A stretch of 64,000 bases of DNA from Defluviitaleaceae bacterium. Lineage in GTDB: Bacteria > Bacillota > Clostridia > Lachnospirales > WQUN01. Every line of letters begins with the position of its first letter. The stretch's first letter is position 1. The notes beneath the pieces were generated by a model that searched no databases, was not told where the DNA came from, and saw only the letters and a program-made list of their open reading frames with translations. Of this stretch, positions 11,903 to 26,920 are shown in pieces. The position numbers were made by a program, and so were the translations under genes. Location: assembly GCA_009785605.1 (NCBI GenBank), contig WQVY01000001.1, positions 1 through 64,000 on the forward strand. The letters are read 5' to 3'.

Positions 11903-13084
11903 CTACTGCAAAACAATCTCCTTGCACGCCTTAAACGCTGCAAGTGCAATATCCAATTGTTCTTTTGTATGCGCTGCAGATACTTGGCAACGCACACGGG
12001 CTTTGCCCTTTGGCACTACCGGGTAGAAGAAGCCAATAGCATAAACACCGTATTCCAACAATTTCTCTGCCATGTTTTGAGCCAGTAGCTCATCATATAA
12101 CATTACCGGAACAATAGGGTGCTGGCCGTCTACGATATCAAAACCAATGGCTTTTAGGCCCTGGCGGAAGTATGCGGTATTGTCGTCAAGTCGGGTTTTA
12201 AATGTTTTATCATTGGCTATTAACTCAAGCACCTTAAGCGAACCAGAAGCGATTATTGGGGATAGTGTATTAGAAAACAAATACGTGCGCGAACGCTGAC
12301 GCAGTATATCAATGATAGCTTTTTTGCCACTGGTATAGCCGCCAGAAGAACCACCAAGGGCCTTGCCCAGTGTGCCGGTTAGGATATCTATACGGTGCAT
12401 GACATTGTGGTGCTCGTGAGCGCCGCGTAGGTTTTCACCAATAACGCCTACGCCATGACTGTCGTCTACTATAACTATCGCGTCGTATTTATCTGCAAGG
12501 TCGCATATTGCGGGTAGGTTTGCAATTGTACCATCCATAGAGAAGACACCGTCTGTGACTATGGCTTTGATACGAGCGGTGTGGGCTTCTTTTAGCCGGG
12601 CTTCCAGTTCTGTCATATTGTTGTTTTTGTACCGGTAGCGGGCGGCTTTACATAGGCGCACACCATCTATTATGCTGGCATGGTTTAACTCGTCGCTTAT
12701 TATTGCGTCTTCGGCTGTGAGGATTGTCTCAAACAACCCGCCGTTTGCATCATAACAAGACGAGTACAAGATTGTATCCTCTGTACACAAAAACTCGCTT
12801 AGTTTGCTTTCCAGGTTTTTATGAAGCTCCTGGGTGCCGCAAATAAAACGCACAGACGATAACCCATATCCCCATGTGTCTATACCTTGCTTTGCGGCTT
12901 GCTTTATATCGTGGTTGTTTGCCAGCCCAAGGTAATTGTTAGCGCACATATTTATTAGGTTAGATTTTTGTTGTGTATTAATAAGTGAGGATTGCGGGGT
13001 CGTAATTATCCGCTCTGTCTTCCATAGGCCAGAGGATTTTATGTCGGTAGTAAGGTTGTGCCAGTGACTATATGCAGATTTCAT
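11903..13084 (-). CDS. kbl: Glycine C-acetyltransferase (2-amino-3-ketobutyrate CoA ligase)
   Basis: Alpha-oxoamine synthase family: [50 protein letters not shown]. Confidence 0.93.
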
Positions 13085-14032: not shown

Positions 14033-16588
14033 TTATAGATATCCAGCTTCCTTCAAACATGTTTGCGCGGCATCCAAATCCTCTGGTGCGACCAAGATAA
14101 TTGGCCCGGTGCAGCCCATACCGCTTGTTGCATAAATGTCCTTTTTCCAAAGCGCCTCTACTGCGTCTTCCAGCTCTAATATTTCTATGCCCGCAATTTC
14201 TTCTGTTACTATTTTTTCTTTAGGTGCAGTTATTTTTTCGGCAGCTTGGGATGCTTGCGCTGTTGCGGATGGTTCTACTGTTAGCAAGGCATCCAGCCCG
14301 GCTTTCCTTGCCGCGGCAAACTCGGCATTTACTTTTTGCAGTAGTTGCCCTTTGGCGCAAGCGGCGGCATAAGCAATTGCCCCAGCCACAACCGGTGCGC
14401 CAGAAGCGCGAGAAAGGATATTTATGATACGGTCATACCCCTGCCCTACCCCTGGGCCATAGCCGTCACCTATGGATTCGTAGCTCCCGCCTGTTGTAAA
14501 CGCACTTAGGGTTTTCATGATTACATTGCCGGTAAGGCTGTCCATAACCATGACATCAGGCGTGCCCTGTAGCAAGTCATTGCCGCGCATTGTTGCACCT
14601 TCGCGGGCGCTTTGGGTCAGATTGATGTCGTACCCGGCCGCTTGCAAGCTTTGAAGCGCACGCTCCAGCGCTCTTGCGCCATCTATATTAAGCACACCAA
14701 CAGCTGGGTTGGGGTTGCCGCATGCCTTTGCTACCGCAATACCATGGATGGTATTTTTTATTAGCGCAGCAGTACGCTGGGTGTCAGATGTACCGGTTGT
14801 ATTGGCCACATACATGCTTGTGCCGCGTCCCGGAGTTATTGCGCGCCCTACTGTGGATACGCCTATGGGGAAGTTGTAATGCATAGTCACGGCCGCATCC
14901 AGTGCGCCGGATTTTAACATGGCGTCCATTTGCGCGTGGGAGGTTTTTTCGTCTGCGGCTTCTATATGCGTTAGGTTAGTTTTGATGGCGGGGCCAATTA
15001 CTATAACTTCAATGTCTGCGTTGGCATTACTAGCTATTTCGGCACCTTTTAATATTTCTGCTTCGCCATGTTCGCTACCCAAAAGTGTTATGCCTATGCG
15101 TGTTTTTTTCACTTTTTGTGTAGTTTCTTCTGGCTCTGGAGCGCCGTTATTTTTTTCTAATATAAAGGATACACCGTCAAACAAATTGGTTAGCCTGCCA
15201 AGGAAAAGACTTCCTTTGCCTATAATCATGACACGATTAAGGTCGCCACTGGCCATAAGGTCTGCTGCGTGTGCCAAGAAAGGTACACCTGACGGGATAT
15301 GCCCTTGGGTTGGCGCAAAGCCTGGCATGGCTATGCGGTCAACAACTGCGTTGAGCTCTCCTCGTTCGAACTCTTTGCGCATTACGCCCAGGGCTGCCAG
15401 CATCTTGTAGTTGGCCTTGGGTACGTCCCCTGCCCCGGCTGGCTCTGTTATTTCGGGGTTTTGCATTTCTACAGAGAAGGTATCTATGTCTGCAATGCCT
15501 AGCCCTGCACGGTCTAATGGGTCGCCAACTATGGCTTGGGTTACGTTCTGTGGGCTTGCGCCGCTTCCTATGGCATGATGGCCTACAATGTCTGTGCGGA
15601 TAATTGGTGATGTGCCGTCGTCTTCGCCAATATGGGCCGCGAAAGCGCCAATCATGTCCTCAAGCACTGGCATTCCTTTTTTTACATGGTCTTTTGCGTT
15701 CATGCCCAGCTTTGCAGATGAGCCCCCTGCAACCACTACAACATTTTTATAAACGCCGCTTTTTACCAGTGCTGCTGCCTGTACCAGTGCGTGGGCTGGA
15801 GCAGCGCAAAAGCTGCGAGTGTCACTTCCGGTTGCATTTATACAGCCACATACTTCGCCTATTGCCTTGGCTATGTTGCCGCCGCCACGCTGATTCATAT
15901 CACCACAAGCTTCTTCGGAACATTCTATAATATAGTCTACCAACGTGGGGTCCAAGCCGGTTTTTGCAAATAATAATGCCATAGACAGCGCAGCGGATGC
16001 TTTACTGGCCAGGTTTTCGAACATAACATGTGCAGATAGCGCTTCGTCAAAGGCATGGGCTTTTTTTACGCAGCCTACAAGTTTGCCTTCGTGATATAGC
16101 GGCTCGGCGCCTTCTTTTACTTGCTCGTCCAGGCTTTCTGGGGTAGCTGGGATGCGCGATAGTTTATCCAAGAAAGGCCATGCACCTACTACCGGGTGGG
16201 CTTTTAGTGTAGCGGATATACGCTGTGCAAAGCTTTCTTCTAATAGCACCAAGTCAAATACATCCACTGCTTTCATCAAACCTATAAATTCGTCTTGGGG
16301 CATAATTTCGCCATGTTTGCCTTGGCGTGTGGCTTCTTTGCTTGCATTCTCGTACCATGGGCGTGGGATTGTGTCCAAGATTTTTGGTTGTATGTTGCCT
16401 ACAAAAACTTGGTTGGGCGGGTATGCGACTGCTTGTTCGAAACTACGAAAGTGCTTAGGCAGCTCGCTAAAATATTCGCTTTCGGGGTTCAACTTACGTT
16501 CGCTTGTTTGGGTGCTGCCTTGGTGCAGTAGTATGTCGTTTGCCTGGATTAGGGCATAGGTTGTGCCCTTTAATACGGGGAATTTCAT
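14033..16588 (-). CDS. grdC-grdD: Glycine reductase complex protein C: fused GrdC (approx. aa 1-480) and GrdD (approx. aa 495-851)
   Basis: GrdC-like KAS fold region (DTRSFCAAPAHALVQAA...KLGMNAKDHVKKGMPVLEDM) followed in the same ORF by GrdD/PlsX-like region ending ATSGMGCTGPIILVA. Confidence 0.92.
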   Translation of the reverse strand: MKFPVLKGTTYALIQANDILLHQGSTQTSERKLNPESEYFSELPKHFRSFEQAVAYPPNQVFVGNIQPKILDTIPRPWYENASKEATRQGKHGEIMPQDEFIGLMKAVDVFDLVLLEESFAQRISATLKAHPVVGAWPFLDKLSRIPATPESLDEQVKEGAEPLYHEGKLVGCVKKAHAFDEALSAHVMFENLASKASAALSMALLFAKTGLDPTLVDYIIECSEEACGDMNQRGGGNIAKAIGEVCGCINATGSDTRSFCAAPAHALVQAAALVKSGVYKNVVVVAGGSSAKLGMNAKDHVKKGMPVLEDMIGAFAAHIGEDDGTSPIIRTDIVGHHAIGSGASPQNVTQAIVGDPLDRAGLGIADIDTFSVEMQNPEITEPAGAGDVPKANYKMLAALGVMRKEFERGELNAVVDRIAMPGFAPTQGHIPSGVPFLAHAADLMASGDLNRVMIIGKGSLFLGRLTNLFDGVSFILEKNNGAPEPEETTQKVKKTRIGITLLGSEHGEAEILKGAEIASNANADIEVIVIGPAIKTNLTHIEAADEKTSHAQMDAMLKSGALDAAVTMHYNFPIGVSTVGRAITPGRGTSMYVANTTGTSDTQRTAALIKNTIHGIAVAKACGNPNPAVGVLNIDGARALERALQSLQAAGYDINLTQSAREGATMRGNDLLQGTPDVMVMDSLTGNVIMKTLSAFTTGGSYESIGDGYGPGVGQGYDRIINILSRASGAPVVAGAIAYAAACAKGQLLQKVNAEFAAARKAGLDALLTVEPSATAQASQAAEKITAPKEKIVTEEIAGIEILELEDAVEALWKKDIYATSGMGCTGPIILVAPEDLDAAQTCLKEAGYL

Positions 16589-16601: not shown

Positions 16602-17468
16602 TCATGAGTTAATGATGTGTGTTATGTTTATTTGCCATCTATCGCCAAATTGTAGCGGTTCTTCTTGGTGTGTCCACTCATATGATGGCCATATAGAGTA
16701 AAAATAGGTCTTTCCGTGCTCTATTGTTGTATCATAAAATTCATAAAAAATACTATCGTCCCATCCCTGGACGATATGCGTAATAATGCGTTCGCCTTTA
16801 TATCCTTCTTGTGTTGAACGGTAAATCCAAATTTCTTCAAACATACGTGGAAAGGCATGTATCCCGGCAAAATAACGTATGCGTACACTGTCTATGAGTG
16901 ATTCATAATTGTATCGCGAGATATTGCTTTCGTAGTGAAAGCGCACTAGCGTATATGCTTTATCGCCTATATAGTAAGTTATTTTGTCTATGGTTGGGCC
17001 AGTTGTATCTACAATAATCCTGTGGTCATTAAAAATTGATAAATCCCAACCATTCCTACCCGGTGTTTGGCAGTAGCAGTAGCCCGGTATAGCAGGGTCA
17101 TAATAAAAGAGCTTTAGCACACAGTAAACAGACCCTTGAGTGTCCACTGTCAGCTCAACCAACCCATTATCAAGGTTGCGCATGTTAATTGGGTATACAA
17201 AGCCCGGACTCCCGGTTCCACCAATAATAAAAGATGATAACGGCCACGCGTGTGCCTGCATCATCACCCCTTGAGGGTGGAAAAAGCGCTCTAATGGCCA
17301 CAATAAACTAGAATTGATTATGAGGCTGTCGTATATCGCATTATCTACCCAATGCCCCGCAATGCGTTCTAATACCATTGTAGGGTCTGGGCTAGATGCT
17401 TTTGCTATGCACGATGATAATGCTAGTATCAGGAAAATGGTTATTATAAACAAGATTGTTTTTTTCAT
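16602..17468 (-). CDS. Lipoprotein of unknown function (288 aa)
   Basis: Signal peptide with lipobox ILALSSCIAKA; no recognisable domain. Confidence 0.7.
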   Translation of the reverse strand: MKKTILFIITIFLILALSSCIAKASSPDPTMVLERIAGHWVDNAIYDSLIINSSLLWPLERFFHPQGVMMQAHAWPLSSFIIGGTGSPGFVYPINMRNLDNGLVELTVDTQGSVYCVLKLFYYDPAIPGYCYCQTPGRNGWDLSIFNDHRIIVDTTGPTIDKITYYIGDKAYTLVRFHYESNISRYNYESLIDSVRIRYFAGIHAFPRMFEEIWIYRSTQEGYKGERIITHIVQGWDDSIFYEFYDTTIEHGKTYFYSIWPSYEWTHQEEPLQFGDRWQINITHIINS

Positions 17469-17577: not shown

Positions 17578-18861
17578 TTAAAAAACGGTTTGACCCTCTA
17601 CATCGGTGCAAAGCGCATCAAGCGCTTTTTTTACAAGCTTGCGGCGTAGTTCTTTTTCTTCTGCCGGGGCAAGGCTTGGGTCACCTAGGGGGTAAGGTAT
17701 AGCTACTGTTGGCAAAATCCTGTTTGCGCCTACAGTAAGGGAAATAGGTACAACCGTACACATATGGACCACGGTAATACCATGACGTTCTATTTCTTTC
17801 ACCATCGTTGCACCGCAACGAGTACAGGTCCCTCACGTGGAGGTGAGGATAACACATGAAACGTTATCCCCAAGTAACTCTTGTGCGATTGCTGTGGCAA
17901 ATTTTTTGGAGTTGGCGACACTTGTGCCATTGCCAACCGTAGAATACCAATAGTCGTGCAAACTGCCTATCTCGCCGTTTGCTACCATTTCTTTTAGAAC
18001 ATCCACTGGTAAGACCCTATCCAAGTCTTGATTAGCATAAACTGGGTCGTACCCGCCATGAGCTGTTTCGCCATTGTCTGGTGTAAAGTCAGATATGCCA
18101 GTAAGGGAATACTTGCCGTACTTGGATGCACTAGATGACTCGATACGGTCGGGGTTGCCTTTTGGCACTGGCCCGCCGGAGCTTACTAAGGCAATGCGTG
18201 CTGTTGTCATGTCCTTGATGGTAGGCCCTGGGGCAACACGGTCGAATACGGGCATGGGATACTCTGTTACGAAATCATCGCCCGCAATTTTTTTGAGCAG
18301 CATTTCTACTGCGCGCTTACTACCGCGTGTTTTGGCAAAATAGTTCTTGCGCAGCCCTTTTTCATAAAAGCCTTCTGTTATTTCTTCGCCTGCGATAATT
18401 TTTTTGACAATTGCGGCCATATCGGGTATGGCTTTGCGCATTGTTGCCGCGCTATTGCCTGTGGATACAAAATAGCCATGGCGTTTGTAGATATCCAACC
18501 CTGGGTTTTCTTCGTATAGGCCGCCTACAACTGGGATGCCTAATTTTTCGTCGACTGCTTTAGCTACGGCGCCACACGCCATGCCATAGCGGCCGGCGTT
18601 AAAGGCTGGGCCTACCACTACGATATCTGGGGCAAAGCTGCTTATCATCTCCAGCACTTCTGGGGCAACCGCATCGATATTTTCGTTGAAATAGCTGTCA
18701 CCGCACACAACAGTGCCAACAACAGTACCAATACCACCAATTGCGGCAGATAGGGCCATACCGGGGCCTACTGCACCGTCACGCTTCTCCGGTTTAAGGT
18801 CGGCTTTTTCTTCGCCGCCATAACCGGCGTAAAACTGATTTATATAGTGTACAATTTTCAC
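17578..18861 (-). CDS. grdB: Glycine reductase complex component B gamma subunit, selenoprotein (UGA/Sec at 17833-17835)
   Basis: ORFs 17833-18861 and 17578-17805 are in the same frame across one TGA: ...VSCVILTSTUGTCTRCGATMVKEIERHGITVVHMCTVVPIS. Confidence 0.93.
17806..17835 (-). promoter_or_regulatory. bSECIS-like hairpin downstream of grdB UGA
   Basis: TGA-gggacctgtact-CGTTGC-ggt-GCAACG: 6-bp stem, loop starting with G, 18 nt after UGA. Confidence 0.75.
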
Positions 18862-18875
18862 TTACGCATGCCTCC

Positions 18876-19328
18876 TTAACCGCGATATGTTGCCACTTCT
18901 TGGATTATTGCGTCTACATCTAGTACCATTTCCATCATGGCAATTTGGTCTTCATATACTGCTGGGTCAATTTCGTCTTTGACTTCTACAATGTGATACG
19001 CTAAGAGTCCCAACGAGACTCCGGCCAGTGGACCTGCATAGGTAGGATCACCAGAAGATACGGTTTCGGCTGCCAGGCCAGAGGCTTCTGCCTCTGCGCC
19101 ACCAAGCAAAATTACTAGCTCGGTATTGCCGTATTTTTCACATAACTCCTTAATCCTTGCCTGATTTTCTAGATCCATGGCACCGGCGCTTGTTCAGACG
19201 AAGCATTCGGTGGTAGAAAACACTACTTCCGCGCCGTCCACTGTGGCTACACAGGCTTCTATTGCCGGGCCGGGGATGCCGTCACGGTCGCCTAAGATGA
19301 CGATTTTCTTTCCGTTTAAAATTCCCAT
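18876..19328 (-). CDS. grdA: Glycine reductase selenoprotein A (UGA/Sec at 19194-19196)
   Basis: [62 protein letters not shown]...; two track ORFs joined through TGA. Confidence 0.95.
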
Positions 19329-19520: not shown

Positions 19521-20807
19521 CTATACGGCTTTTGCAGTTAGATATCCATAGCCTAGTTCATTGGTTGCGCCAATTATTACTTGGATTTCGGCCTCGATAC
19601 TGCCGTCTGCGCGCAAGCTGCCTTCCCAGCCGCCTGCGATTACATGGGCTACTTCTGGGTAGCCGATAACGGTATCCATGGCGGGTAGTTCGACTACTTC
19701 GTTGGCGTTGCCGGCTGTTACTACTGCGTTGCCTAGTGGTGTAGAGTCGGCCAATGATTGGCTGCCACCGTCTTGTCCGGCGTATTCGTCTGTGATTAGC
19801 ACGGTTTTGATGCCTTGGGCTTCGATTTTGTTACAGTTCATAACCAGGTCTGCATCAGGGTTGCCGAAGCCTTCTTCGGAGATGATTACTGCATCTACAC
19901 CCAAAAAGCCTGTAAGCTTGGCTGTCATGTTACTACTGCGCTCTTTGTCAGCCAGGGTTACGTTTTCGTTTGTGATTATGCAGCCCATGAAGTTAATTGT
20001 CTTGCCGTGCTCGGCATACAAATCCATGATAACTGGGTTGTTGGCATGGATGTATGTTGGGTTTTTGTCACAGGCAGATACGCAGTTGCCGCTTACTATG
20101 GCACTGTCCATGATTTCTGTAGGGTACATGAAAGTGGGGACGATTTCTGCTACGTTTACACCGTAGTAGAAGGTGTTGTGCAATAGGCCTTGGGTTTGTA
20201 GCATATATACATAGGCTACCTTGGGCAGGCCTGGGTACTGGGCGGCTTGCTCTAGTATTGGCTTGGTTTCGTAGGTGGTGACATTGTCGGGTTTTGCCTC
20301 ACGGCCCGCTTCGCCCAAGTATACAGCTGCGCGGAAACCAGCCATGCGTACCACATATTCATGGTCATGCTGGTTGATACCGTCTACGGGTTCTACTTTT
20401 ACTACTACATTTTGGGTTTTTGAGAATGGCGTATAGTCCGCACCCGGCCCTGACATGTCTATTATACCTTCTTGGAAACCTACGATCTTGCCGGTTGTCA
20501 CAACTGCCGCGCCTTTTAGGACATGGGTGCGGCCGCTGCCTACTGTTTCAACATCGGCAATAAAACCTGGGAAGATGTTGCCAGAACCTTCTACTTTTAC
20601 CCTTGGCTCGATTACATCTTTAACAGGCAAGATACGTACCGACTCGCCTGGGCGGGCAAGAAAGACTTCTACGGACTTTATCCGGTCGTCTTGGCCGGCT
20701 ATTACGGCAAGTTCGGCTTGGTTAACATAAAGCGTGCCGTTCTTAACTGCCGTTGCCTCGCCGAATTGCACATCTTTGATTAAGATTTCGCCTATTTCTA
20801 AGCGCAT
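19521..20807 (-). CDS. grdE: Glycine/sarcosine/betaine reductase component B alpha/beta proprotein
   Basis: MRLEIGEILIKDVQFGEATAVKNGTLYVN..., SGNCVSACDKNPTYIHANNPVI around the pyruvoyl-forming Cys. Confidence 0.95.
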   Translation of the reverse strand: MRLEIGEILIKDVQFGEATAVKNGTLYVNQAELAVIAGQDDRIKSVEVFLARPGESVRILPVKDVIEPRVKVEGSGNIFPGFIADVETVGSGRTHVLKGAAVVTTGKIVGFQEGIIDMSGPGADYTPFSKTQNVVVKVEPVDGINQHDHEYVVRMAGFRAAVYLGEAGREAKPDNVTTYETKPILEQAAQYPGLPKVAYVYMLQTQGLLHNTFYYGVNVAEIVPTFMYPTEIMDSAIVSGNCVSACDKNPTYIHANNPVIMDLYAEHGKTINFMGCIITNENVTLADKERSSNMTAKLTGFLGVDAVIISEEGFGNPDADLVMNCNKIEAQGIKTVLITDEYAGQDGGSQSLADSTPLGNAVVTAGNANEVVELPAMDTVIGYPEVAHVIAGGWEGSLRADGSIEAEIQVIIGATNELGYGYLTAKAV

Positions 20808-21145
20808 TACATACCACCTCCTACTAACTCATCCAACTTAGCTTGCACCGCAGCAATGCCGCCTTCTTCAATTGCTTCCTTGTTGAAGGAGAACACCTTC
20901 TCGCCACCCTTATAGAATACCAAAGTAGGTAGACCCATCACTTTTTGGGCAATGGCCAAGCGCCTGTTGCCCGCTGTGTCCAGCTTGCAAAACTTAGCGC
21001 GGCCAGCATTTTTGTCCGCAAATGCCACAACCTCCGGCATCAGCGCCATACAAGGCTCGCACTTTTCGCTCCAGAAGTCTACAAATATCAGGCCCTGTGC
21101 CTGTAGCACTTCAGCATCGAAGTTTTCCTTTGTTAACTCAATCAT
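20807..21145 (-). CDS. trxA: Thioredoxin linked to glycine reductase (CEPC active site)
   Basis: FVDFWSEKCEPCMALMPEV, GLPTLVFYKGGEKV. Confidence 0.92.
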   Translation of the reverse strand: MIELTKENFDAEVLQAQGLIFVDFWSEKCEPCMALMPEVVAFADKNAGRAKFCKLDTAGNRRLAIAQKVMGLPTLVFYKGGEKVFSFNKEAIEEGGIAAVQAKLDELVGGGM

Positions 21146-21185: not shown

Positions 21186-22166
21186 TCATGCGTTGAGCTT
21201 GCTCAAGTCCTCTGGTGTAACCCGGCCTTCGACATGCCCTTCTAGGTACCTTTCTGCCGCTACTGCCGCTATTGCGCCATCTGCAGCTGCAGTTACTACT
21301 TGACGAAGATACTTTTCCCTGGCATCGCCTACGGCATACACGCCGGGGATATTGGTTTCCATTTTGTCGTTGGTTGTGATATAGCCCCACTTGTTGAGTG
21401 CTACTTTGCCTTGCAAAAAGTCTGTGTTGGGCACAGAGCCTATAAATACAAACACGCCATTAACATCCAAGTCGGAAATCTCACTTGTTTTGATGTTTTT
21501 AACACGTACGCCCTCTACCAACTCATCGCCTATTATTTCATCTAACACAGAGTTCCAAATCCATTTGATTTTGGGGTTTTTCATGGCTTTTTCGGCGCTC
21601 ATTTTATTGCAGTCTAGTACGCCTTCGTTGTGGATGACAATTACCGTCACAGTCTCTGCAAATTTTGTAAGGTACATAGCTTCTTCTATTGCTGCGTCGC
21701 CGTTGCCTACTACTACTACATCCAGTTCCTCAAAAAAATCTGCGTCGCAGGTGGCACAGTATGACACGCCTTTCCCGCGAAGCTGGCCTTCGCCCTTTAC
21801 ACCCAAAGTGCGTGGTTGTGCGCCTGGGGATAGGATTACTGTACGGGCTTGGTATGTCTCACCGGTTTTGGTTGTGACTTTTTTTATTTCGCCACTTAGG
21901 TCAAGGTCTGTTACTTGGCCCTTTATGATTTCTGTACCAAAGTGTGTAGCATGGGCCGCAAATTGGTCCATTACTCCGGGGCCGGTGGTTTTTTCGTAGA
22001 AGCCTGGGTAGTTTTCCATTTCCATGGTTGTGGCGGCTTGGCCACCAGCGCGGCCTTTTTCTATTATTGCGGTCTTGAGTCGGGCACGGCTCCCGTATAT
22101 GCCGGCGGTAAGGCCGCCTGGGCCTGCTCCTACAATTAGGATGTCGTATGGTTGCGACATGGGCAT
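21186..22166 (-). CDS. trxB: Thioredoxin reductase
   Basis: IVGAGPGGLTAGIYGSRA, SYCATCDADFF, GVYAVGDAREKYLRQVVTAAADGAIAA. Confidence 0.95.
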   Translation of the reverse strand: MPMSQPYDILIVGAGPGGLTAGIYGSRARLKTAIIEKGRAGGQAATTMEMENYPGFYEKTTGPGVMDQFAAHATHFGTEIIKGQVTDLDLSGEIKKVTTKTGETYQARTVILSPGAQPRTLGVKGEGQLRGKGVSYCATCDADFFEELDVVVVGNGDAAIEEAMYLTKFAETVTVIVIHNEGVLDCNKMSAEKAMKNPKIKWIWNSVLDEIIGDELVEGVRVKNIKTSEISDLDVNGVFVFIGSVPNTDFLQGKVALNKWGYITTNDKMETNIPGVYAVGDAREKYLRQVVTAAADGAIAAVAAERYLEGHVEGRVTPEDLSKLNA

Positions 22167-24639: not shown

Positions 24640-25644
24640 ATGAGTTTTTTGGAAAGCGTAAAAAAACGCGCCAAGTCTCAGCTAAAAACCATTGTCCTGC
24701 CAGAGTCATTGGAGCCGCGCACATTAAAAGCCGCGCAACAAATATTGGCAGAAGGGATAGCAAAGCTTATCCTTATTGGCGATAAAGCCGAAATAACTGC
24801 CTTGGCCAACGCCGAAGGAGTAGATGTTTCTAACGCAACTTTTGTATCTTTGTCCCAAGACGGCGGTCTAATCGAAGATTTATCCGTTAAGTTGGCCGAT
24901 TTACGCAAATCCAAAGGTATGACAAAAGAGCAAGCTTACGAGCTTCTTACAACCAACCCCATGTACTTGGGCTGTATGCTAGTAAAAGACGGAATTGCCG
25001 ATGGTATGGTTGCCGGGGCTGTTTATTCTACAGCAGATGTATTGCGACCCAGTTTGCAAATTTTAAAGACTGCGTCAGGGATTTCCTTGGTGTCGTCTTT
25101 TTTTGTTATGGTCGTACCCAACTGTGAATATGGCGCAGACGGTGTGTTTGTCTTCTCCGACTGCGGGCTGGTACAAAACCCCAACGCCCAAGAACTTGCC
25201 GCTATTGCCAAAAGCTCTGCAGACTCTTTTGCTGCACTTACTGGGGTTGAGCCGGTTGTGGCACTACTGTCCCATTCTACCAAGGGCAGCGCAAAACATG
25301 CAGATGTGGACAAAGTAGTAGAAGCAGCACAGCTACTAAAAGAAATGGCCCCGGATTTAAAAGCAGATGGTGAGTTCCAGCTAGACGCGGCAGTTGTGCC
25401 AGCCATTGGGGCATCCAAGGCACCCGGCAACGATGTAGCCGGCAAGGCCAATGTGCTGATATTCCCAGATTTGGACGCGGGTAATATTGCGTACAAGATA
25501 GTAGAGCGGCTTGCAAAGGCAGATGCTCTTGGCCCTATAACACAGGGTATAGCCAAGCCTGTGAACGACCTTTCTAGGGGATGCAGCGCGGAAGATATCG
25601 TAGGTGTTGTGGCAATAACCGCAGTACAAGCACAGGCGCTGTAG
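24640..25644 (+). CDS. pta: Phosphate acetyltransferase
   Basis: [77 protein letters not shown]. Confidence 0.96.
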
Positions 25645-25668
25645 CCTATTAATCCGTTATAAATTTCC

Positions 25669-25691
25669 GGTTTTGATGCTACCGATAAACC
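25669..25691 (+). repeat. 23-bp interspersed repeat, copy C
   Basis: GGTTTTGATGCTACCGATAAACC between pta and ackA. Confidence 0.65.
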
Positions 25692-25729
25692 ATTTTGAAG
25701 AAAACTAAAAATATAAAGGGGTAATATCC

Positions 25730-26920
25730 ATGAAAATCCTAGTAATTAACTGTGGTTCGTCATCATTAAAGTACCAGCTTCTTAACATGGCAGACGAGAG
25801 CGTACTGGCTAAAGGCCTATGCGAAAGGATTGGCATAGACGGCCGTCTAGTGCACGAGCGCCCCCAGGGCAAGTACGAAGCCTCCCCCAACATGCCAGAC
25901 CATGCCGCAGCAATGTCTGTATTATTGGACGCGCTGCTTGACGCTAACCACGGCGTTATAAAATGCAAATCCGAAATAGGCGCAATAGGCCACCGTGTAG
26001 TACATGGCGGTGAAACATTTACAGCGTCTGTACTAATAAACGACACCGTAGAAGCAGCAATTGAAGCCGTAAGCGACTTGGCACCACTTCACAACCCACC
26101 CAATTTGACGGGTATCCGCGCTTGTAAACAGCACATGCCCAACGTACCACAGGTAGGTGTTTTTGACACGGCTTTCCACCAGACAATGCCAGCCAAGGCA
26201 TACCTGTATGCCCTGGATTATGATATGTATGACAAGCACAAAATCCGCAGGTATGGCTTCCACGGCACAAGCCATAAATATGTGTCACAGCAAGCCGCAG
26301 AGTTACTGGGCCGCCCCCTTAGCGAGCTTAAACTCGCATCTTGCCACCTTGGCAACGGCGCAAGCGTATGCGCAATCAAGAATGGTGAGTCTGTAGATAC
26401 ATCTATGGGTCTTACACCGCTCGAGGGCCTTGCCATGGGTACACGCAGTGGTGATATAGACCCAGCAATTATCCCGTTTATTATGGAAAAAGAAGGGCTC
26501 ACTGCCGCACAAGTGGTAGACGCGCTCAATAAAAAATCCGGCATGTTGGGACTAAGCGGTGTAGGTAGCGACTTCCGTGACCTGTCCGCAGCAGTGGATA
26601 CCGGCAACGAAAGAGCCAAAAATGCACTAGATGTATTCGCGTATCGTGTGGCCGGGTATATTGGCCGCTACGCCGCATGCATGAACGGCTTGGACGCAGT
26701 AATTTTCACCGCCGGTATAGGCGAGAACGATAGCGGTATCCGCGCCAAGGTATGCGAATATCTGGAGTGGATGGGTGTAAGCATCAACGCAGATGCGAAC
26801 AGCAAACGCGGCAAAGCTATGAGTATCTCCAACACCGGCGATAAAGTACAAGTGTTGGTCATCCCCACAAACGAAGAACTTATGATAGCCCGCGATACAA
26901 AGAAAATCCTAGAAGCATAA
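25730..26920 (+). CDS. ackA: Acetate kinase
   Basis: MKILVINCGSSSLKYQL, RYGFHGTSHKYV, HLGNGAS, GVGSDFRDL, FTAGIGEN. Confidence 0.97.
   Translation: MKILVINCGSSSLKYQLLNMADESVLAKGLCERIGIDGRLVHERPQGKYEASPNMPDHAAAMSVLLDALLDANHGVIKCKSEIGAIGHRVVHGGETFTASVLINDTVEAAIEAVSDLAPLHNPPNLTGIRACKQHMPNVPQVGVFDTAFHQTMPAKAYLYALDYDMYDKHKIRRYGFHGTSHKYVSQQAAELLGRPLSELKLASCHLGNGASVCAIKNGESVDTSMGLTPLEGLAMGTRSGDIDPAIIPFIMEKEGLTAAQVVDALNKKSGMLGLSGVGSDFRDLSAAVDTGNERAKNALDVFAYRVAGYIGRYAACMNGLDAVIFTAGIGENDSGIRAKVCEYLEWMGVSINADANSKRGKAMSISNTGDKVQVLVIPTNEELMIARDTKKILEA

Follow-up and report, generated by a model that had tools for sequence, protein, structure and literature searches.

What holds GrdC and GrdD together as component C of glycine/sarcosine/betaine reductase, a selenium-dependent enzyme that reduces amino acids with a gain of energy, and what becomes of that arrangement when the two genes are joined into one? 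The question is raised by grdCD, a gene in the 64,000-nt stretch of contig WQVY01000001.1 from a Defluviitaleaceae bacterium (the window, meaning the whole stretch analyzed), which an earlier note had read as GrdC and GrdD fused, in that order, in one open reading frame (ORF). Our data bore this reading out and placed the gene on the minus strand, with an AAAGGAG ribosome-binding site immediately 5′ of an ATG at 16588, a stop at 14033-14035, and no internal stop across 851 aa; it is the sole grdC/grdD copy in the 2.62-Mb assembly. Both domains scored above their NCBIfam equivalog cut-offs (GrdC NF040746, aa 4-481, 764.1 bits against 450; GrdD NF040747, aa 488-851, 516.4 bits against 350), and the Pfam matches comprised ACP_syn_III (256-332), DUF5940 (349-493), and FA_synthesis/PlsX (497-830). 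The GrdD domain is complete, as the note had stated, with residue 826 as the Cys of its GMGCTGP motif. The GrdD profile was matched only from position 17 onward, and DUF5940 only as far as 148 of its 166 positions, a first hint that the fused protein lacks the tail of GrdC and the head of GrdD.

A comparison of the junction, taken as the stretch between the conserved cores in 123 loci (59 fused and 64 split; 47 and 58 after removal of near-copies), agreed with this hint. In all 64 split loci, GrdC ends in an amphipathic helix of the type GVSEEEVkklIAeAMRdFAxsL, and GrdD begins with a similar helix of the type iKKxIaetFlEIAdALETGsFGK. The hidden Markov models (HMMs) of the two helices were built from the same split loci, so that the split scores (at least 33 bits for the GrdC tail and at least 36 bits for the GrdD head, 64/64 each) are high by construction and the informative part is the absence in fused loci, where the GrdC-tail model reached 5.1 bits at most. 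The GrdD-head model found only three close relatives among the fused loci (L032, L107, and L108, the first and last being the same contig; 25-27 bits), in which the second half of the helix is kept, and scored 1.9 bits or less in the others, including 1.9 bits in the window. The GrdC helix is thus kept in none of the 59 fusions, and the GrdD helix is also absent from 56 of them. Most fused loci carry instead a linker of 12-26 residues with no common sequence. The short linker that the earlier note had described as acidic is indeed present in the window (N481-K495, 15148-15104), but its composition is a mixture of Glu and Lys, and its sequence is unconserved even within the family. When a split pair was modeled by reading through the stop, a device for treating two chains as one that carries no claim on translation, helices appeared between the domains at 489-509 and 520-539 with moderate confidence, whereas the model of the window's fusion showed only a disordered stretch (predicted local distance difference test [pLDDT] below 50 at aa 485-492) and no helices at the junction. 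The two helices also resemble each other (hhalign probability, 86.7%; P, 4e-6), and 94% and 69% of the real sequences exceeded the 95th percentile of shuffles; this likeness is as expected for a related docking pair, although convergence of short amphipathic helices may explain it.

The coding frame of the split loci was also compared. The two genes share a reading frame in 52 of the 64 split pairs, many of them with one stop between; this exceeds the one-third expected by chance, with the reservation that related loci are non-independent. Fusion by mere loss of that stop, with both helices retained, had no example among the fused loci, and selenocysteine (Sec) insertion or read-through at the split-gene stop was rejected, since almost every split locus has TAA or TAG as the first stop after GrdC.

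The rarity implied by the earlier note was not supported. Fusion is the rule in the family, where the genes are joined in 10 of the 11 genomes that carry them, and it was found in at least 13 of 29 such genomes in the order, in 8 of 113 sampled across the phylum, and, in a class-wide sample, in the window's genome as the sole one among 47. Uniqueness of the fusion was rejected on these family, order, and phylum samples; grdCD represents a familiar enzyme component in fused form. The earlier note had named commonness of the fusion across the clade as grounds for refutation, and such commonness is what the samples showed. In one scan of genome contigs, about half of the 80 top-ranked named loci were fused, in a list skewed to the architecture of the query. 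The scan loci came mainly from uncultured Clostridia, including Defluviitaleaceae bins resembling termite-gut material, with other bins labeled Spirochaetes, NPL-UPA2, Symbiobacteriaceae, Peptococcaceae, and Synergistaceae, some of which may be mis-binned. One genome (G728) encodes component C in two forms, fused and split (L113, L120), each long-branched; they would lend themselves to direct comparison, provided that neither is contamination.

To place these fusions in history, trees were built from the core sequences only, with the linkers left out. The 105-row tree required 15 changes between the fused and split states, of which well-supported branches made 13 unavoidable (forced), and separate trees required 14 for GrdC (9 forced) and 13 for GrdD (6 forced). 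In a 48-row tree, with rows picked so that the fused groups and the split loci next to them were represented, 13 changes were needed (12 forced), and a single fused clade descending from one ancestral fusion was rejected (log-likelihood 1558 lower; p-AU, the approximately unbiased test, 1.4e-6). Parsimony is silent on which state is ancestral; because both helices are common to all split loci, their repeated regain would be unlikely, and we read the changes as repeated fusions, with the fused state having arisen about a dozen independent times across Bacillota. The window belongs to a supported group of ten fused rows, the next relative of which (L027) is split. One young event can be resolved at the nucleotide level: compared with their split close relative L115, the fused L107 and L108 show a clean in-frame deletion of 141 nt, which begins directly past the GrdC core and ends halfway through the GrdD helix. 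The deletion is flanked by the short similar sequences GGCTTT and GTCTTT.

We favor, with a probability of about 0.62, the reading that grdCD is a functional single-chain component C and that the terminal helices dock GrdC to GrdD in split systems, a role that the tether replaces in fused ones. In two-gene systems, the C-terminal helix of GrdC and the similar N-terminal helix of GrdD would hold the subunits together; joining of the genes would remove the GrdC helix, the stop and start codons, and the GrdD helix in whole or for the most part (through one deletion in the only young case resolved), and in the window's protein a 13-residue linker would take over their job. That a single chain fixes a 1:1 stoichiometry and tethers the two halves, as the earlier note suggested, is a fair deduction from the architecture. 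The GrdC half, with a ketoacyl-synthase-III (KAS-III) fold and Cys261, would take the carboxymethyl group off selenoprotein A and form an acetyl thioester, and the GrdD half, with a PlsX fold and a hinged Cys826 domain, would hand the acetyl group to phosphate, yielding acetyl phosphate for acetate kinase. Both the order of acetyl transfer and the enzyme activity are predicted here from sequence. Cys261 and Cys826 are invariant across fused and split rows, and a Cys near the GrdD C-terminus of Eubacterium acidaminophilum has reportedly been shown to be an active-site thiol. The small Cys826 domain follows a variable hinge modeled with low confidence and could therefore swing between the two active sites as an acyl carrier. 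The hinge spans 21-64 aa in relatives and is rich in Ala, Lys, Pro, and Glu; the longest, up to 64 aa with short repeats, belongs to L025 and resembles the swinging-arm linkers of acyl-carrier domains. The fuller proposal, in which heterotypic, related docking helices have been swapped for a tether a dozen or more times and the hinged Cys domain serves as acyl carrier, has in our judgment about an even chance of being right.

Several alternatives bear on this reading. The chance that a read, assembly, or frameshift artefact deleted a stop/start pair is negligible: the source assembly is fragmented (134 contigs), but the same uninterrupted architecture recurs in nine other family genomes, with proteins 68-83% identical to the window's, and in dozens beyond, across several assemblies, and the window's junction is without the helix remnants that a point error would leave. 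A sequencing or assembly error was therefore rejected. It is improbable that the fused chain is cleaved after translation into GrdC and GrdD, in the manner of GrdE-type proproteins, to give a mature component of two chains; the disorder of the linker in the model would suit such processing, but its lack of conservation even in the family leaves no common cleavage motif, and without the helices less remains to hold the pieces together.

More weight falls on the possibility, which we regard as rather unlikely, that the fusion is functional but the helices are not docking elements between GrdC and GrdD, having been lost since genes fuse by deletion. Their roles might then lie in homo-oligomerization, in contact with component A, component B, or thioredoxin, or in coding and translational-coupling sequence. 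The sole recent case is a deletion that took the GrdC helix and half of the GrdD helix at once, and the helices are alike, as homotypic contacts might be. However, with so many split pairs in frame and one stop apart, stop loss would have been an easy route that keeps the helices, and yet both are retained together in no fusion and conserved in every sampled split locus. Docking by the helices is something we infer rather than observe, and a number of points weigh against it: the pLDDT of the helix region is only about 70-75, and the read-through model tethers the helices artificially; the helices could bind another partner or serve oligomerization; and some of their loss may be a side effect of deletion being the way in which such fusions arise.

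The genes around grdCD complete a glycine/sarcosine/betaine reductase system able to supply acetate kinase with acetyl phosphate. In minus-strand order, they are trxB, trxA, grdE-type, grdA, grdB, an unrelated predicted lipoprotein gene, and grdCD itself, followed 3′ by a methyltransferase gene and then a glycine C-acetyltransferase gene (Table 1). The fused gene is co-encoded with Sec-containing GrdA and GrdB and a thioredoxin system in a Sec-decoding genome, which encodes SelA and a tRNA-Sec scoring above the Rfam cut-off; phosphate acetyltransferase and acetate kinase genes lie at 24640-26920. The downstream glycine C-acetyltransferase suggests a feed of glycine derived from threonine. Such a gene is also found 3′ of grdCD in three other loci (L021-L023). 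The predicted lipoprotein ORF (288 aa, 16602-17468, minus strand), which separates grdB from grdCD, had no Pfam or NCBIfam match and no counterpart in the related grd loci examined, and is apparently an insertion into the operon specific to the window. In one genus (g3: L024, L025, L026, and L028), the fused grdCD is located away from grdA and grdB; an orphan GrdCD without components A and B was rejected there, as grdA and grdB are on other contigs of the same genomes. By eye, the neighbors of grdCD in L025 resemble pyruvate kinase, phospholipid-synthesis, and 2-oxoacid oxidoreductase genes.

Table 1. Features of the grdCD locus, in window coordinates.
Feature	Position	Strand	Basis
trxB, thioredoxin reductase	21186..22166	-	TIGR01292 above cut-off
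trxA, thioredoxin	20807..21145	-	Pfam/NCBIfam profiles
grdE/G-type component B proprotein	19521..20807	-	Pfam Gly_reductase, 691 bits
grdA, selenoprotein A	18876..19328	-	Sec TGA 19194-19196, U45
grdB, selenoprotein B	17578..18861	-	Sec TGA 17833-17835, U343
grdCD, fused glycine/sarcosine/betaine reductase component C	14033..16588	-	Single ORF, 851 aa; domain profiles
GrdC domain (aa 1-481), KAS-III/thiolase-like fold	15146..16588	-	NF040746; Foldseek to FabH and SCP2-thiolase-like structures
Cys261 codon, KAS-III-type nucleophile position (SFCAAP)	15806..15808	-	Cys in 47/47 fused, 58/58 split
Inter-domain linker GAPEPEETTQKVK (aa 482-494), in place of split-locus helices	15107..15145	-	Junction comparison; pLDDT < 50 at aa 485-492
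GrdD domain (aa 495-851), PlsX-like phosphate acyltransferase fold plus C-terminal Cys domain	14036..15106	-	NF040747; Foldseek PlsX 6a1k/1vi1/1u7n
Flexible hinge (about aa 763-795), PlsX-like core to Cys domain	14204..14302	-	pLDDT < 50 at aa 773-783
Cys826 codon in GMGCTGP, presumed acetyl-thioester Cys of GrdD	14111..14113	-	Cys in 46/46 fused, 56/56 split
kbl, glycine C-acetyltransferase, downstream neighbor	11903..13084	-	Profile match; kept in nearest relatives

In the open papers searched, we found no description of a GrdCD fusion or of docking helices in GrdC and GrdD. The new point is the recurrence of the fusion coupled with the loss of the terminal helices. If the fuller proposal is true, component C would offer a comparison, run repeatedly by nature, of acyl transfer between docked and between tethered partners, and the two helices provide a precise, testable hypothesis of subunit docking. 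A single-chain component C would also be an easier target for structural and enzymological work on the cooperation of GrdC and GrdD, about which little is known. The fusion further illustrates how operon neighbors turn into one enzyme, in one case via a single in-frame deletion.

Among known systems, the closest is the two-gene component C, as in 'Ca. Formimonas warabiya', where GrdC (513 aa) and GrdD (388 aa) are separate proteins (PMC9768040). It shares with grdCD both domains, both invariant Cys positions, the gene order, and the cluster partners, but consists of two chains with terminal helices of about 20 aa, whereas in the single chain a linker replaces the stop, ribosome-binding site, and start. 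The window's gene, a single 851-aa ORF in which both helices are absent, does not belong to the two-gene type. A sequence search found no solved structure matching the fusion, although a fold search with Foldseek did, and the identity of the GrdC half to solved structures is under about 21%. This half shares its fold and nucleophilic Cys position with FabH and SCP2-thiolase-like proteins and differs from FabH in its DUF5940 C-terminal half; the substrate of GrdC is a Se-carboxymethyl protein, unlike that of FabH. PlsX, which converts acyl-ACP (acyl carrier protein) and phosphate into acyl phosphate, has its fold in common with the GrdD half (6a1k and others), as well as, by prediction, its chemistry of turning an acyl thioester and phosphate into acyl phosphate; the GrdD half additionally carries a flexibly hinged Cys domain at its C-terminus; the PlsX equivalog score of grdCD (TIGR00182, 25.9 bits) is far below the cut-off of 243.4, and the protein is not PlsX. 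In modular polyketide synthases, paired terminal helices connect separate proteins and a covalent linker takes their place in fused ones; these are different enzymes, and the swap of linker for docking proposed for GrdC and GrdD, where the docking itself is a prediction, would be similar to theirs.
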